Of a stretch of 64,000 nucleotides of DNA, positions 35,165 to 57,643 are shown piece after piece. The position numbers were made by a program, and so were the translations under genes. Numbering within the stretch: position 1 is the stretch's first letter; each line of letters begins with the position of its first letter. The notes below the pieces were generated by a model. It was given only the letters and a program-made list of their open reading frames with translations, did no database searches and was not told the DNA's origin. The DNA comes from Eubacterium sp. (lineage in GTDB: Bacteria > Bacillota > Clostridia > Lachnospirales > Lachnospiraceae), in assembly GCA_017480495.1 (NCBI GenBank), contig JAFVAQ010000003.1:118543-182542 (forward strand). The letters run 5' to 3'.

Positions 35165-35267
35165 TAGGGACGGTTCTGATTTACTCATTCACTTACGAGA
35201 ACAAGTAAATCAGAACCGTCCCATTTTGCTCACCTATATGTGCAAAACAGAAACGTCCCTATTTGCA
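35165..35267. repeat. Dispersed AACCGTCCC repeats, one as a perfect 19-bp inverted pair
   Basis: GGGACGGTTCTGATTTACT (35167-35185) and its exact complement (35204-35222) form a long hairpin. A third unit (TGCAAAACAGAAACGTCCC, then TATTTGCA) follows at 35241-35267. They separate two convergent genes. Confidence 0.85.
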
Positions 35268-50775: not shown

Positions 50776-52467
50776 CTATTTTGTCTCATTTAGAATCATT
50801 TTTGCTTCTTTTAAATCAATTCTTGCTTTATGACCATGTTTTTCTAGCAAACCAAGTAACTGTCCCCCATCAATCAATTGTATTGGTTTTCCATTTGCAA
50901 AATCATATGCATCATTACCAAAATATGAAGTTGTTACCAAAATACCTTTCATGGCCCCCTCATTCATTAATGTACCATACAAATCTCTAACAGCTGATAC
51001 ACCAACTACATTTGTATATCTCTTTGCTTGAATAACAATTTTACCACCTCTAATAGGATCTGGATCAAATGCAACCGCATCAACACCACCATCCCTACTA
51101 GCTTGTGTTATTTTAACTTCACCTCCATTAGCACTAAATTCTTGTCCAAAAACTTCATTGATTAAATTTTCAAAATCTTTCCAATCAATAGCTGCCAGAT
51201 TTACCCCTTCATTAATTGAATCAATAACACTGTATCCCTCAATAAATCTTTCATCATCCTTATCTAATACTTGAATTGGCTGAACTGGAGTTACATTAGC
51301 TATATTAGCTGCTGCAACACCTTTGACACTACGGAACCATGTTTTTGCATCTATTGATGATAGGTTTAGTGACTCAAATTTTTCTCTATTAACTCTAACC
51401 GAAAGAATACATGCAACCGTTTCATTACCAGTAGATTTATCAATAGTATTAACCATTCCATTTAAAACAACGGCATCAAATAAATTAAACTCCTTATTAA
51501 CACTAAATATTCTATTTAAATACAACAAAGCCAACTGATAAACAACATTATCATACTTCTTTGAAACTTGATTATCAGAATAAAAAGACTCTTTAAACTC
51601 TTGTCTAGATTTTACATAAGAAACTGACTTTAATTTAGGCATTATATCAATGGTTGGAAAAAAAGCATCCACAATTACATTCTTATTTTCTGAAGTATAA
51701 CCTATTTTATGGCCCCTCTCATATTCTAAAGGAATATCAATCTTGTCTAATAGCATTTCAATATATTCATCAACTGCATCTGAATCACCATTTTTGACAG
51801 ATTCTTTAAATTCATCTACTCCTTTATTATGCTCATTCTGTCTATCAATATATTCTTTCTTTCCATTTTCCCATTCAACTACCTTTTTTTGATAATCCTC
51901 TTCCATTTTATTATTCAAAGCCTTATTGTTTTGATCAATCTGAAACCATTTATCATGAGCCTGTTTATAATTATTATCATTTTCAGAATTAAACTGAGCC
52001 AATTTATTTTTTGATAATTTAACAAATAGACCCGGTTTAGGATTAAAAATCTCATCAGAACGCTGAGGTTCTCTCGCATCAGGAATCATACTTGGCTTAT
52101 TTGGATAAGAAACGGGATATTCATTATGATCTTTGAGCATCTCAAAATCAATTTTATCAAAATTCAAATCATTAATAAGCAAAGAATCCAACTGATTTTG
52201 AATACTAACTGCATCGTTAGTCATTTGTTCAGCGTACATAATAGCCTTTTCATTATTTCGAGCTATTTCTGCTTTCTCTGCTCTTTTTTGTTCAGCTAAC
52301 ATTTTTTTATTATCAGCCTCAATCTTTCTGTTCCACCGTTCATTCCACTGATTCATTTGTATCTCAACTTTATATCTCAATTCATTTTTTGAATTTGCGC
52401 CAATTGTCTTTTGTAGATTTAATCCTTCATGATATATTGTTTGATGATATCTGTATCCTCTTCCCAT
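50776..52467 (-). CDS. Mrr-like restriction endonuclease with coiled-coil N-terminus
   Basis: 563 residues. The N-terminal 230 residues are charged and coiled-coil-like (KKMLAEQKRAEKAEIARNN). The C-terminal 120 residues hold an Mrr-type PD-(D/E)XK domain: FENLINEVFGQEFSANGG, SRDGGVDAVAFDPDP, KIVIQAKRYTNVVG and VRDLYGTLMNEGAMKGILVT. The Asp in DGGVDA and the QAK triad look intact. Stand-alone Mrr proteins cut modified foreign DNA (type IV-like). No methylase is nearby. Confidence 0.82.
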   Translation of the reverse strand: MGRGYRYHQTIYHEGLNLQKTIGANSKNELRYKVEIQMNQWNERWNRKIEADNKKMLAEQKRAEKAEIARNNEKAIMYAEQMTNDAVSIQNQLDSLLINDLNFDKIDFEMLKDHNEYPVSYPNKPSMIPDAREPQRSDEIFNPKPGLFVKLSKNKLAQFNSENDNNYKQAHDKWFQIDQNNKALNNKMEEDYQKKVVEWENGKKEYIDRQNEHNKGVDEFKESVKNGDSDAVDEYIEMLLDKIDIPLEYERGHKIGYTSENKNVIVDAFFPTIDIMPKLKSVSYVKSRQEFKESFYSDNQVSKKYDNVVYQLALLYLNRIFSVNKEFNLFDAVVLNGMVNTIDKSTGNETVACILSVRVNREKFESLNLSSIDAKTWFRSVKGVAAANIANVTPVQPIQVLDKDDERFIEGYSVIDSINEGVNLAAIDWKDFENLINEVFGQEFSANGGEVKITQASRDGGVDAVAFDPDPIRGGKIVIQAKRYTNVVGVSAVRDLYGTLMNEGAMKGILVTTSYFGNDAYDFANGKPIQLIDGGQLLGLLEKHGHKARIDLKEAKMILNETK

Positions 52468-53594: not shown

Positions 53595-53837
53595 TCTCGT
53601 TTAAATATTTATTTCTAAACAAACATAATTACTACAAAACCAAACAAGAGCATCCAAATCAACATACACCAAGTACACCTACTCAGCGTGTGTTAACCGT
53701 CTGCCCTTGTAAGATTTGTAAGTATTATTTTGTCAATTTTACCCCTCATCGCTTGTTGTCCCTTCTCCTTATTTTAGTACCCCAGCGATGTGTTTATTAT
53801 ACCACAAACAGGGTTAATCTTAAAGCAGCAGAGGCAA
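53595..53837 (-). other. Gene-poor interval with a possible 18-residue peptide and TATAAT
   Basis: The minus strand has TATAAT at about 53795-53800 and then AAGGAG. An 18-codon frame follows (53749 to 53693, MRGKIDKIILTNLTRADG). In the same frame after the stop there is a short hydrophobic stretch, MLIWMLLFGFVVIMFV. CATCGCT and AGCGATG form an inverted repeat across the leader. These could be leader peptides for the 92-residue gene, but support is weak. Confidence 0.3.
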
Positions 53838-54319: not shown

Positions 54320-54375
54320 CGTTTCTGATGCCCCAATTATAAATTCTCCAGTAGGGTGTTAAAAAGGACACACTA
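54320..54375 (-). promoter_or_regulatory. Conserved 56-bp promoter module, copy A (HIRAN gene)
   Basis: Minus strand order: TAGTGTGTCCTTTTTAAC, ACCCTA, a variable part, TATAATT (-10 at 54336-54341) and GGGGCATCAGAAACG. TTTAAC and TATAAT are 16 bases apart. The first TAG is also the stop codon of the PolC-like gene. The module matches copies B and C almost base for base. Confidence 0.8.
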
Positions 54376-55503
54376 AACTTCAGGGTAATTTATCTTATAA
54401 TACAAAATCCTTAGTCCCATTAATGCATAAGTAACCGCATGCGCCTTAGGGAATAAATACTCTATCTTTTCACAAGAATCTATATACCACCCAGGTATAT
54501 CATGCCCTCTCATCGCATCTTTCCATTCCGTTGGAAGCCCCAACCTTTTAGCCTTTCCTTTTCGTATGTATTCCATCATTTCATAGGCGAGTTCCTTATC
54601 AATTCCCTTTTCTTCCAAATACAGCAGCACATCATCACGTGATGAGATGCAGCCAGTAAGATTCGTAGTATCATTACCAATCAAATCTTTGGCATTTCCT
54701 TCCCAAACTCCCGTGCCAAATGCGAGTCCCATCACTTTAATCAGATCAGATATCCCCCTCACCTCAACATACGGCAAAATTTCCTCAAGAATATGGGTTG
54801 TCCTAGACCCCGCCAATCCATTAACTCCAGATTCGATTTGCAAATCATCAAATAGCTTTTTATCATTCAAAGTAATATCCAGCGGATTAACCCCTGTCTC
54901 TTCCTGCAGGTGTTTCAACATTTGTAGTCCTTTATATTCACACAAATCAAATCTGTAGAAGCATTTCTCATATTCATCCACTGAGAGATTCCCCTCAAGA
55001 TCTACACCCTCTGGAATTATTAAAAATGCAGTCGGATGATAATCTTTATCTACCTTAAATCTAACAATATCTCCGACTCCATCTAACTGCTTCAAATCAG
55101 CCACTATATCATCTCTTATCTCCGGAGCAACATTGAAGACAATCTCCGGCTTCTTTGAATAATCAATTCCATAATGAACTTCCGGAGGGATATTGTAGCC
55201 TCCGTACTTTTCAGGCAGCGGATTTATATCAGTTATCCCCATGAGATATGCAACAAATGAACCAGCCAGCGTTCCCCTGGTCCCTGTCATATAGCCTTTT
55301 TCTAAACTAATACGCGTTATATTTTGTGCAATAAAATAGTAGGATTCATATCCATTATCGATAATGCCAGCGAGTTCTGCATTTAATCTTTCTAGTATTT
55401 CATCTGGAACTATCTTTCCATATATTTGATGCAATTTTTGATCACATATCTTCCTAATATCTCCATTTGCTTTAAACATTAATTCTGCTATTCCTCTCTC
55501 CAT
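54373..55503 (-). CDS. PolC-derived protein lacking catalytic aspartates
   Basis: 376 residues from ATG 55503 (AGAAGG six bases upstream). It aligns with the palm-fingers part of DNA polymerase III PolC: GYMTGTRGTLAGSFVAYLMG, ITDINPLPEKY, ISDLIKVMGLAFGTGVWEGN, EYIRKGKAK and WYIDSCEKIEYLFPKAHAVT. The exonuclease, PHP, OB and C-terminal regions are absent. At the position of the PolC motif PDIDLNFSGEY the protein reads PEIVFNVAPEI, so both metal-binding aspartates are lost, and much of the palm is shortened. The frame is intact with its own promoter, so it is probably a non-catalytic protein and not a decaying fragment. Confidence 0.82.
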   Translation of the reverse strand: MERGIAELMFKANGDIRKICDQKLHQIYGKIVPDEILERLNAELAGIIDNGYESYYFIAQNITRISLEKGYMTGTRGTLAGSFVAYLMGITDINPLPEKYGGYNIPPEVHYGIDYSKKPEIVFNVAPEIRDDIVADLKQLDGVGDIVRFKVDKDYHPTAFLIIPEGVDLEGNLSVDEYEKCFYRFDLCEYKGLQMLKHLQEETGVNPLDITLNDKKLFDDLQIESGVNGLAGSRTTHILEEILPYVEVRGISDLIKVMGLAFGTGVWEGNAKDLIGNDTTNLTGCISSRDDVLLYLEEKGIDKELAYEMMEYIRKGKAKRLGLPTEWKDAMRGHDIPGWYIDSCEKIEYLFPKAHAVTYALMGLRILYYKINYPEV

Positions 55504-55535
55504 AATCAACCTTCTTTCTATTAATCAAACTTTCT

Positions 55536-55591
55536 CGTTTCTGATGCCCTAATTATAAAATCTTTAGTAGGGCGTTAAAAAGGACACACTA
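55536..55591 (-). promoter_or_regulatory. Conserved 56-bp promoter module, copy B (PolC-like gene)
   Basis: Minus strand order: TAGTGTGTCCTTTTTAAC, GCCCTA, a variable part, TATAATTAGGGCATCAGAAA and CG (-10 at 55552-55557). The spacing is identical to copies A and C. GCCCTA and TAGGGC flank the -10 and could pair. Confidence 0.8.
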
Positions 55592-55634
55592 AAAAGAGCA
55601 GCATTTCTGCCGCTTCTTCATAAAAATTACATAA

Positions 55635-55664
55635 AAGTTGTCACAGGAACCGTCCCCACCGGCT
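55635..55664. repeat. Dispersed AACCGTCCC repeat (GTCACA type)
   Basis: AGTTGTCACAGGAACCGTCC and CCACCGG. Confidence 0.8.
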
Positions 55665-55702
55665 CCTAATAATTGATACTATAGTAGCAGTAATATAAAA
55701 GA

Positions 55703-55732
55703 TATGCAAAACAGAAACGTCCCCATTTGCAC
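55703..55732. repeat. Dispersed ACGTCCC repeat (GCAAA type)
   Basis: TGCAAAACAGAAACGTCCC and CATTTGCA; arms TGCAAA/TTTGCA. Confidence 0.75.
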
Positions 55733-55734
55733 AA

Positions 55735-56127
55735 CTAGAATGTTACGACCTCTGGAGCGCTGGTGAATGAGCTGAAGGTTGCAGTAGCGTCCTTCAGATA
55801 GAACACTTCTGTATTACCATCATCTGCAGAATACATAGCCTGGAGATCAGGATAAGCATCCAGCATTGACTGTCTTGCTTCCACTCTGTCATCTTCAACA
55901 AGCTCGCACGCAACTCTGAGCCACTGGCCGTCCTTGAAAGCGCACAGCTCAGCCTTAGGATTTGCGTGAATCTGCTGTGATACAGGCTTCACCTTTCCTG
56001 TCTGGATATACAGCTTGCCCTCGAATATATTTGCTGTTCCAAAAGGACGAACTCTTGGCTGATCGCCCTCAACTGTCGCGAGATAATAAACCCCTGCCGC
56101 CTTTAGAAAATCTGCTACTCTTTGCAT
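55735..56127 (-). CDS. Pyridoxamine 5'-phosphate oxidase-like flavoprotein
   Basis: 130 residues, a single split-barrel domain: AGVYYLATVEGDQPRVRPFG, LYIQTGKVKPVSQQIHANPK and AELCAFKDGQWLRVACELV. Members of this PPOX-like family bind FMN or F420-like cofactors and reduce small molecules. The true pyridoxine enzyme is longer. AGGAGG precedes the ATG. It stands as a single gene. Confidence 0.85.
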   Translation of the reverse strand: MQRVADFLKAAGVYYLATVEGDQPRVRPFGTANIFEGKLYIQTGKVKPVSQQIHANPKAELCAFKDGQWLRVACELVEDDRVEARQSMLDAYPDLQAMYSADDGNTEVFYLKDATATFSSFTSAPEVVTF

Positions 56128-56189
56128 TTCTTTTACCTCCTAAAAATAGATGTTTTCATTATATCACAAATCGCATTCCATTAAACTCC

Positions 56190-57389
56190 TTAGTCGCGAA
56201 ACTCCGCGAGGCATCTGCCGCACGGAGAGTAGCCCCTACCCTTAAGCTCCGCCAGAGTCCCAACGTACTCCTCTTTATTATGTTCTGCCATATCATTTAC
56301 GCTATTACATTCTGGCAAATGCACCTTCTTGGAGCTCGTATTCAGAACATACGTTCTTTCCTCACTCTCAAAATCGGAGCCACCTTGGTTCCCGTTTTCC
56401 TGATTACTTGTCTCATTTACGCTATCAGCCGCGTCATTTTCTCCGACAACTGCATTCTCACTTGGCTTATTCGTATCCGCCGTGACTGTATCTTCTGGTT
56501 TTAGCATTTCCGCATCTTGTCCCAACGCCACCTCGCTGTCGCCCGTCGCATAGTCTATCTTGATCCCCGGCTGCACGTTGTAGCAATACACATTGAAGCA
56601 GATTCCCTTGCCCTCATCTTCTACAGACCAAGCTTCCATCTGCACTCCCGACGCGAGCAGATTGTCGCCTTCGAAGACCGGCGTCACACGATAGAGAACA
56701 TGGTTCCTAGTATCGCGGACGTAGTCCAACACTTTTAGCTCGAAGATCTGCATCGTCTCTTGATTAAGGAAACGCGTACCTGTAATCAGGTTCAGGGGAT
56801 TCGCATTTTCGCCCGCGAGACTGTAAGCGATGAGGTGAGACCTATTGTATAAATAGTTGTCTTCAATTAGGTCTGGATACTTGACTGTGTGCCAGCCGGA
56901 AGGCCTTATTTCACCAATGCTACCGCGCTCCTCCGTAGGCATTAGCTCCGGACAGATATTCGCGTATGCCACACCACATCTTCCCAGCTCATCCAGTGAA
57001 TCGTAATATTCAAATGCATCCGTACTCTTTTTTTCTTCATCGGTAAATAGAGGTACATTTTCATTTAGCTCTATAAATGCCTCGCCGGAATATGCGGGAT
57101 ATTCGCCACTCGAGGTTGAAGTTTTTTCAAAGGGTTCATCACCTTCTTCTCGTGACTTAGCACCACTTGACTCATCGCCTATTGGCACTACACCATCGGC
57201 CTCGCTCGTCGCAGTTTCGGGAGCATTTTCGCTCTCATCCCCCTCCGTCGTCTGCTCTACCGTAACCACCTCAAGCTGTTCCGTGGTTGGTTCATTTATA
57301 AAAGATGTGCAGCCAAAGAAAACGCTCATCATGGCTGCACATATACATATCTCAATTAATTTCTTCAATCTATTTTTCAAGAACATCCA
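56190..57389 (-). CDS. Secreted DNA-entry-type (EndA/NucA-like) nuclease with Ada-like metal-binding tail
   Basis: 399 residues from Met at 57389, with GGAGAG upstream. A start at 57422 is unlikely because it overlaps a TATAAT. The N-terminal signal (CICAAMMSVFFGC) may end in a lipobox. A Thr/Glu-rich spacer leads to the nuclease domain (LYNRSHLIAYSLAGENANPL, NLITGTRFLNQETM, VQMEAWSVED), in which NRSH sits where EndA has DRGH. The tail TYVLNTSSKKVHLPECNSV with YSPCGRCLAEF matches the Cys-rich domain seen in such nucleases. EndA-type enzymes degrade one strand during DNA uptake. It follows a 36-residue membrane peptide gene and promoter copy C. Confidence 0.85.
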   Translation of the reverse strand, partial: WMFLKNRLKKLIEICICAAMMSVFFGCTSFINEPTTEQLEVVTVEQTTEGDESENAPETATSEADGVVPIGDESSGAKSREEGDEPFEKTSTSSGEYPAYSGEAFIELNENVPLFTDEEKKSTDAFEYYDSLDELGRCGVAYANICPELMPTEERGSIGEIRPSGWHTVKYPDLIEDNYLYNRSHLIAYSLAGENANPLNLITGTRFLNQETMQIFELKVLDYVRDTRNHVLYRVTPVFEGDNLLASGVQMEAWSVEDEGKGICFNVYCYNVQPGIKIDYATGDSEVALGQDAEMLKPEDTVTADTNKPSENAVVGENDAADSVNETSNQENGNQGGSDFESEERTYVLNTSSKKVHLPECNSVNDMAEHNKEEYVGTLAELKGRGYSPCGRCLAEFRD

Positions 57390-57432
57390 GCTCTCCATCC
57401 TCGATATCAGTACTGGCTCCATTATACCACAC

Positions 57433-57543
57433 TTATATTAGGAAGATACCAAGTATAAACAGCACTATCCAGCATATGCCCTTGAAAACCCACCACATAA
57501 GTTTAAGTGGCCATACGCATAATTCCCATAGTAATCTCAACAT
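57433..57543 (-). CDS. Small membrane peptide
   Basis: 36 residues: MLRLLWELCVWPLKLMWWVF, KGICWIVLFILGIFLI. The ATG at 57543 has AAAGGGG nine bases upstream; the ATG at 57552 touches that site and is less likely. It is almost entirely hydrophobic with many Trp. It is the first gene after promoter copy C and lies directly ahead of the nuclease, so it may help its membrane placement. Confidence 0.55.
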   Translation of the reverse strand: MLRLLWELCVWPLKLMWWVFKGICWIVLFILGIFLI

Positions 57544-57554
57544 AAGAATCATCC

Positions 57555-57610
57555 CCTTTCTGATGAGCTAATTATACGATTCTATCTAGGGCGTTAAAAA
57601 GGACATACTA
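57555..57610 (-). promoter_or_regulatory. Conserved 56-bp promoter module, copy C (membrane peptide and nuclease)
   Basis: Minus strand order: TAGTATGTCCTTTTTAAC, GCCCTA, a variable part, TATAATTAGCTCATCAGAAA and GG (-10 at 57571-57576). Same length and spacing as copies A and B. The GGGC that could pair with GCCC in copy B is not kept here, so the module is not simply a terminator. Confidence 0.8.
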
Positions 57611-57611
57611 T

Positions 57612-57643
57612 GTGAGTATATCAGAACCGTCCCTATATACTCA
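57612..57643. repeat. Dispersed AACCGTCCC repeat (ACTCAT type)
   Basis: GTGAGTATATCAGAACCGTC, CCTATATACTCAT; arms GAGTATAT/ATATACTC. It lies between the ABC permease stop and promoter copy C. Confidence 0.8.

Follow-up and report, generated by a model that had tools for sequence, protein, structure and literature searches.

Two WYL-family activators of LexA-independent damage responses, DriD of Caulobacter crescentus and PafBC of mycobacteria, have been characterised in detail as sensors of single-stranded DNA (ssDNA). DriD binds a 20-bp pseudo-palindrome that overlaps the -35 region and lies at a constant distance from the -10 box, in promoters whose -35 hexamers show one or two of six matches (PMC12340889). 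DriD activates didA, bapE, recJ and dnaG, and its site is also found before driD (PMC12340889). The didA product is a single-span membrane protein of 71 aa that blocks division (PMC4211646), and the described targets include this membrane division inhibitor, an endonuclease and an exonuclease (PMC12340889, PMC4211646). PafBC of mycobacteria, which acts by sigma adaptation, is described as a heterodimer with a -26 element that is activated by ssDNA (PMC11804915). Phage defence is repressed by BrxR, another WYL protein, which binds inverted repeats; those that have been characterised follow a -10 box instead of covering the -35 (PMC9122601). In defence contexts, HIRAN genes are reported as neighbours of HipA and diDNase genes (PMC11706625), and another protein is mentioned as having either HIRAN or WYL proteins for partners (PMC9503650). 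Here we describe a promoter module present in three copies in a stretch of 64,000 nucleotides of Eubacterium sp. (Lachnospiraceae; assembly GCA_017480495.1, contig JAFVAQ010000003.1, positions 118,543 to 182,542), hereafter the window. Comparison with related genomes suggests that the module is probably the promoter served by a DriD-like WYL activator that is encoded outside the window, elsewhere in the same assembly (G000; 1.89 Mb, 65.6% complete). The host is a gut or rumen bacterium and, judged by its relatives, the switch is probably worked by a WYL-family sensor of the kind which elsewhere activates DNA-damage genes independently of the SOS repressor. The titles and abstract beginnings of the open-licence papers listed in our literature searches contain no description of the element or of its regulon.

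The three copies, A, B and C (Table 1), are all located on the minus strand, with the downstream genes read leftwards, and each comprises about 56 bp with the core TGTCCTTTTTAACRCCC-N12-TATAAT-N5-CATC. The blocks TAGTRTGTCCTTTTTAAC, RCCCTA, TATAATT and CATCAGAAA are identical in all copies at constant spacing; A and C differ chiefly in their spacers. The repeat finder returned a single family of three copies over 62 nt, in which B and C are 90% and 68% identical to A, respectively. TGTCCTTTTTAAC occurs exactly three times in the window, each time in a module, and five more times with one or two mismatches. A search of the whole assembly for the 19-letter core with up to three mismatches gave the three perfect module copies, all within 3.3 kb, and four weak matches with two or three mismatches (reversed control, four). 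The module is real, local, above chance and sited at gene starts. A preliminary description of this DNA had reported three copies of equal length with blocks at fixed spacing, placed before genes for a HIRAN protein, for a PolC-derived protein and for a small membrane peptide with a nuclease; repeat finder and alignment reproduce this arrangement. Copy A overlaps the end of the PolC-like gene, and its first TAG is indeed the stop codon at 54373-54375. In a sigma-70 scan, none of the three module -10 boxes had a -35 with at least four of six matches at 16 to 18 nt. The left half of the conserved block reads TGTCC and is centred near the -35 position, with the -10 at a fixed distance. A specific regulator beyond sigma-A is likely, as the preliminary description expected, and a candidate of the WYL family can now be named.

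A related element was recovered from HIRAN promoters across the Lachnospiraceae. HIRAN relatives occur in 11 of the 61 genus genomes and, at E<=1e-10, in 31 of 299 family genomes, our own included. Outside G000 and G307, a genome of the same genus, 39 HIRAN upstream regions were available, of which 37 were used after two shorter than 150 bases had been dropped. De novo motif discovery in this set yielded TGTCCTTTTTATTGGACA plus a -10 box with a log-likelihood of 289, versus 121-134 in six shuffled sets, and 26 of the 37 regions score at least 15. In these relatives the element is a dyad, TGTCC-N8-GGACA, near the -35 position, with the -10 at a near-fixed distance (spacing 23 or 24). A matrix built from the 27 upstream regions of other genera only (consensus GnTGTCCnTTTTATnGGACAG...TAnnnT) was run over both strands of the window, about 128,000 positions, where it placed copy B at rank 1, copy C at rank 2 and copy A at rank 4; an earlier matrix with the genus included had placed the copies at ranks 1, 3 and 4. 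None of 100 shuffled versions of the copy C region attained the score of this copy. The start of the transcript is conserved as well: of the 26 HIRAN-promoter sites that score at least 15, 7 have ATCAGA no more than 35 nt from the -10, at offset 9 or 12 (shuffles, mean 0.39, maximum 4); among 407 tiles of these upstream regions, site tiles included, 10 have it. In the window, CATCAGAAA carries ATCAGA at offset 12, the expected transcription start. ATCAGAA is conserved in the window promoters and in HIRAN promoters of other genera, either at the expected transcript start or three bases ahead of it. One further leader (L215) contains ATCAGAA five times. Rfam at gathering threshold reported only a tRNA in the whole window. 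With its dyad upstream of the -10, the module was rejected as an RNA element.

Beyond our own assembly, the core was found in two further genomes of the genus. In G307 (Lachnospiraceae bacterium UBA3801, same genus), copy B, the PolC derivative (97%), copy A and the HIRAN gene follow each other in unchanged order. In G336 (RUG12167), a perfect core, TGTCCTTTTTAATGCCC-N12-TATAAT-N5-CATC, is flanked by genes for an ATPase and a UvrD helicase; TGTCCTTTTTAAYRCCC-N12-TATAAT is common to G000 and G336 and precedes the helicase in the latter. Part of this match could be coincidence, because its T-run also ends a terminator-like hairpin (by eye) of the upstream gene, although the additional CATC, correctly spaced, speaks against this. 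A near-exact search (24 letters, up to two mismatches) in the 299 family genomes returned our own genome only, and was too strict because the operator diverges too fast. The core scan of species genomes returned UBA3801, RUG12167 and three loci with an 11-base spacing (two in Goldiibacteriota, one in Sulfurospirillum), which we took as unrelated. Viral contigs contained no match to the core and, by peptide patterns, no HIRAN relative. A pattern widened for the genus, with up to three mismatches, gave six perfect cores and 25 matches with three mismatches (33 in the reversed control); two of these 25, in G300 and G353, are promoters of WYL genes.

A recurring set of genes is found behind the element. 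Three of the six perfect HIRAN-type cores precede HIRAN genes. The core of G319 heads an operon encoding a cysteine-rich protein, a membrane peptide, HIRAN and WYL proteins; that of G299 heads an operon with the membrane peptide, WYL and, by eye, a C5-methyltransferase-like open reading frame (ORF); and that of G303 precedes a transposase-like ORF (by eye). Two of seven matches with one mismatch, in G300 and G342, precede operons for the cysteine-rich protein, the membrane peptide and WYL. Weaker sites with a fitting context precede the membrane peptide in G302, the cysteine-rich protein and then WYL in G316, and the cysteine-rich protein in G341. Matches with two mismatches are about as frequent as in the reversed control, and those named here were selected by eye from their dyad, -10 and context, so that they are suggestive only: type I-C cas3-cas5 in G302 (Cas3c by PADLOC, Cas5 by Pfam; ATTATCAGAACC following), two C5 methyltransferases in G303, a recombinase neighbourhood, an ADP-ribosylglycohydrolase, a GTPase, a HEAT/AAA locus and a transposase-like ORF of G299 (contig C8). 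A site in G316 precedes an exonuclease-looking ORF, which has no Pfam match, and a Schlafen-type helicase. The small cysteine-rich protein is often the first gene behind the element (L217, L224, L232, L244, L226, L128) and follows approximately the pattern M-x-R-x-K-F-W-x(5)-T-C-x-C-C-C-x-T-C-K-Y-Y-x-E-C-R; the protein of G319 has no Pfam match. The membrane peptide of the window belongs to the recurring set, since its alignments with the peptides of G349, G319, G342, G300 and G302 beat 1000 of 1000 shuffles, and that with the G299 peptide 988 of 1000. Nuclease matches are present in 43 of the 61 genus genomes, and a significant element was found upstream of 0 of 18 evaluable relatives (19 loci, one with too little upstream sequence); these upstream regions had been scored earlier with the strict window consensus, and none was significant with the matrix. 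The nuclease behind copy C thus looks like a local addition. The units had been described as all concerned with DNA: this holds for most of the genes, whereas a unit C centred on the nuclease is unsupported, because it is the membrane peptide that recurs behind the element and none of the 18 nuclease relatives has a significant copy upstream.

The regulator that accompanies the element is a WYL protein. A WYL-domain gene follows the HIRAN gene in G319 and G299; the G319 protein matches Pfam WYL at 3.9e-12, with WCX slightly below its cut-off. At E<=1e-20, relatives were found in 48 of the 61 genus genomes, including G336 and G000, whose near-identical WYL proteins include the one encoded at G000:C33:14986-15954 (PADLOC WYL, 3.5e-30). 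Across 14 aligned proteins the DNA-binding region, a winged helix-turn-helix called from conserved sequence rather than from a domain match, is strongly conserved, as is the TGTCC half-site. Compared with solved structures, our own WYL protein found six distinct sequences at E<=0.01, and it matches DriD and PafBC chains with E-values of 4e-4 to 5e-3 (phmmer) and 9e-5 to 4e-3 (profile). Of these, 9pfq, 9pfv and 9pga are DriD complexes (PMC12340889). Judged by the stretch that matches and by their scores, we take 8tp8/8tpk, 7u02, 7tzv and 9cu3 to be DriD too, and PafBC is represented by 6sj9. Several WYL genes have TGTCC-N24-TATAAT-like promoters. A pattern drawn from the WYL sites and the window copies matched 21 times in 15 of the 61 genomes: seven matches precede a WYL match by 46-119 bp, three are in G000, two in G307, one each in G336 and G316, and seven away from any WYL match. 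With the matrix from other genera, the element was detected at shuffle p<=0.02 in 8 of 29 WYL-gene upstream regions (binomial 7.5e-8, with non-independent species; 30 loci, one with incomplete upstream sequence). WYL is the sole regulator type noticed repeatedly beside the element (G299, G300, G316, G319, G342; no systematic search for others was made).

LexA was considered as the regulator of the module and rejected, from the distribution of its Pfam domain (PF01726) and from its own upstream regions. PF01726 was detected in 28 of the 61 genus genomes and not found in 33, among them G000, G307 (70% complete), G336 (87%) and the single-contig G302; some of these assemblies are incomplete, and a divergent LexA could escape detection. 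The gene set behind the element is of the damage type, as in the LexA/SOS system of Clostridia, but four of eight LexA-gene upstream regions of the genus carry CGAACATTYGTT and none has a significant element by the matrix from other genera. The module contains no Clostridia LexA box, in agreement with the preliminary description. Among 31 high-quality genomes, the WYL regulator (at least 330 bits) was present in 16 of 16 without a LexA match versus 11 of 15 with LexA (Fisher p 0.043). For all 61 genomes, p was 0.055 at this threshold and 0.03-0.10 at two others, kinship being uncorrected. In G311, which narrowly misses the quality cut (97% complete, 6% contamination), both LexA and a close WYL relative are lacking.

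These data point to the WYL protein of G000 as the probable activator of the module. A WYL dimer would bind the dyad and would embrace region 4 of sigma, as DriD does; binding of ssDNA, from damage or from invading DNA, by the WYL domain would lead to recruitment of RNA polymerase. From this analogy we infer induction by damage or foreign DNA. A LexA-independent DNA-damage response is the most plausible function, because the candidate regulator is a WYL protein of the DriD and PafBC kind. The putative system resembles that of DriD in its WYL regulator with detectable sequence relation, in a dyad that overlaps a poor -35 at a fixed distance from the -10, and in a small membrane protein and nuclease-type genes, comparable to the membrane protein, endonuclease and exonuclease of the DriD set. 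A site before the regulator gene, which DriD has, reaches p<=0.02 for 8 of 29 WYL genes of relatives and is absent before our own. The putative system differs in its half-sites (TGTCC and GGACA with 8 between, instead of ATACGAC-7-GTCGTAT), in its Firmicute lineage and in its gene set, with HIRAN, the cysteine-rich protein and the PolC derivative; moreover, the window copies retain one good half-site only, and ssDNA sensing is putative. PafBC is likewise a WYL activator that replaces -35 recognition, but as a heterodimer with a -26 element, instead of a single protein with a dyad near the -35.

Several observations weigh against this assignment. In the window copies only the left half-site is good, the right one being degenerate, with RCCCTA instead of GGACA, and the three copies are not independent observations. 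Their matrix scores of 15.7-18.7 compare with chance maxima of 14.0-24.5 in 20 shuffled windows; because scores of such size occur there, only ranks at prespecified places are informative. The 21 genus-wide pattern matches are hardly more than the 18 of the reversed control. Among the WYL-gene upstream regions, 21 of 29 miss p<=0.02, and the species are related. The module is absent from the 250 bp searched upstream of our own WYL gene (operon start by eye), and G307, at its 70% completeness, has no WYL match at E<=1e-20.

The same operator could instead serve a BrxR-like WYL repressor of a defence island, relieved by phage infection rather than by DNA damage, which we consider unlikely. BrxR is itself a WYL phage-defence repressor acting on inverted repeats (PMC9122601), and a repressor on a dyad that covers the -35 region would also block polymerase. 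Defence genes are found nearby, with an Mrr-type restriction enzyme in the window and element-like sites before the C5 DNA methyltransferases of G303, the type I-C cas3/cas5 of G302 and the Schlafen-type helicase of G316. On the other hand, a perfect -10 without an acceptable -35 is what activator-dependent promoters have, the solved relatives DriD and PafBC are both activators, and the BrxR repeats lie downstream of the -10, off the -35, with HIRAN unmentioned in the main text of that article (PMC9122601). Binding of the module by another regulator, for example of the XRE type, with the WYL genes merely as further targets, is a quite improbable reading. It would account for an element that is significant before just 8 of 29 WYL genes and absent before our own, but no other type was noticed repeatedly beside the element in G299, G300, G316, G319 and G342 (again without a systematic search), and the WYL DNA-binding region and the TGTCC half-site are both strongly conserved.

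It is very improbable that the module is no more than a local repeat, in which a promoter of 56 bp was duplicated together with the genes beside it and has no dedicated regulator. The perfect copies do lie within 3.3 kb and A and B share 90% identity over 62 nt, but A and C differ mostly in their spacers with identical blocks, the core precedes an unrelated helicase gene in another species (G336), and diverged versions stand before the HIRAN and the WYL genes of further genera or species. The footprint in relatives therefore already speaks against a plain repeat. A competence regulon or an alternative-sigma-factor promoter, both raised in the preliminary description, is hardly conceivable. The genes do concern DNA, and one encodes a nuclease whose family includes DNA-entry nucleases, but the -10 is sigma-A-like, the conserved block aligns with the dyad operator of the relatives, the element is linked to WYL, and nothing pointing to competence was seen, no competence gene being recognised behind the element copies read, although no search was aimed at competence.

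Table 1. Positions of the module copies and adjoining features in the window.
Feature	Position	Strand	Remarks
Module copy A	54320..54375	-	Upstream of HIRAN gene; operator-like block, -10 and conserved transcript start
Module copy B	55536..55591	-	Upstream of PolC-like gene
Module copy C	57555..57610	-	Upstream of small membrane peptide and nuclease
Terminator-like hairpin and T-run	55597..55614	-	Directly upstream of copy B
HIRAN-domain protein, 99 aa	53991..54290	-	Pfam HIRAN 2.7e-14
PolC-derived protein, 378 aa from TTG start as listed, in-frame ATG further in	54373..55509	-	Alignments with PolC
Small membrane peptide, 36 aa, MLRLLWELCVWPLKLMWW...	57433..57543	-	Recurs behind element in relatives
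DNA/RNA non-specific endonuclease, 410 aa	56190..57422	-	Pfam Endonuclea_NS_2 6.4e-20
Mrr-type restriction enzyme	50776-52467	-	Pfam Mrr_cat, PADLOC mREase_IV

The hairpin upstream of copy B probably isolates the unit of this copy. The PolC derivative comprises the fingers and part of the palm, with PolC similarity flanking a gap on either side. It is probably inactive as a polymerase, because PolC's PDIDLN, whose DxD is the metal-binding pair, reads PEIVFN and the zinc-site insert is absent, in comparison with the Geobacillus PolC and with the organism's own PolC; in the Geobacillus alignment the PDIDLN stretch itself aligns without significance. A second PolC-derived protein with an altered DxD strip, PDFELN, is encoded in G323 (C35, L032), and the two possibly belong to one family of polymerase paralogues that are altered in this way within the genus. 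The N terminus of the endonuclease is lipoprotein-like by eye, and its gene may also have a promoter of its own. The Mrr-type enzyme adjoins the module cluster, and the G307 contig lacks it at the corresponding place. The stretch 53660-53830, on the minus strand, carries a promoter-like site, TTAAGA-16-TATAAT with TG, is kept in G307 between the HIRAN gene and that for a 99-aa membrane protein, and could be a small RNA; it has no Rfam match at gathering threshold. REP-like GGGACGGTTC elements are located at 57619-57633 (minus strand), at 35167-35222 and around 55640-55665 in the window, as well as upstream of the WYL operon of the same genome (L151 8274) and at a contig edge of G307. They resemble repeats associated with REP-type transposases.

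A wider proposition, which we regard as tentative and on balance doubtful, is that a DriD-like WYL activator has replaced LexA as the main DNA-trouble switch of the genus. It would unite the response to damage with defence against phages (type I-C CRISPR, DNA methyltransferases and restriction) under a single regulon, in which the dead PolC derivative and the membrane peptide would act as brakes on replication and division. The distribution of the WYL regulator among high-quality genomes with and without a LexA match, given above, speaks in its favour. If the reading is true, WYL damage control would be far wider than Caulobacter and mycobacteria and would reach the Lachnospiraceae, many of them without a LexA found. 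It would provide a concrete DNA site for tests and a functional lead for the stand-alone bacterial HIRAN protein, the small membrane peptide, the cysteine-rich protein and the PolC derivative, and damage sensing may be tied to CRISPR and restriction.

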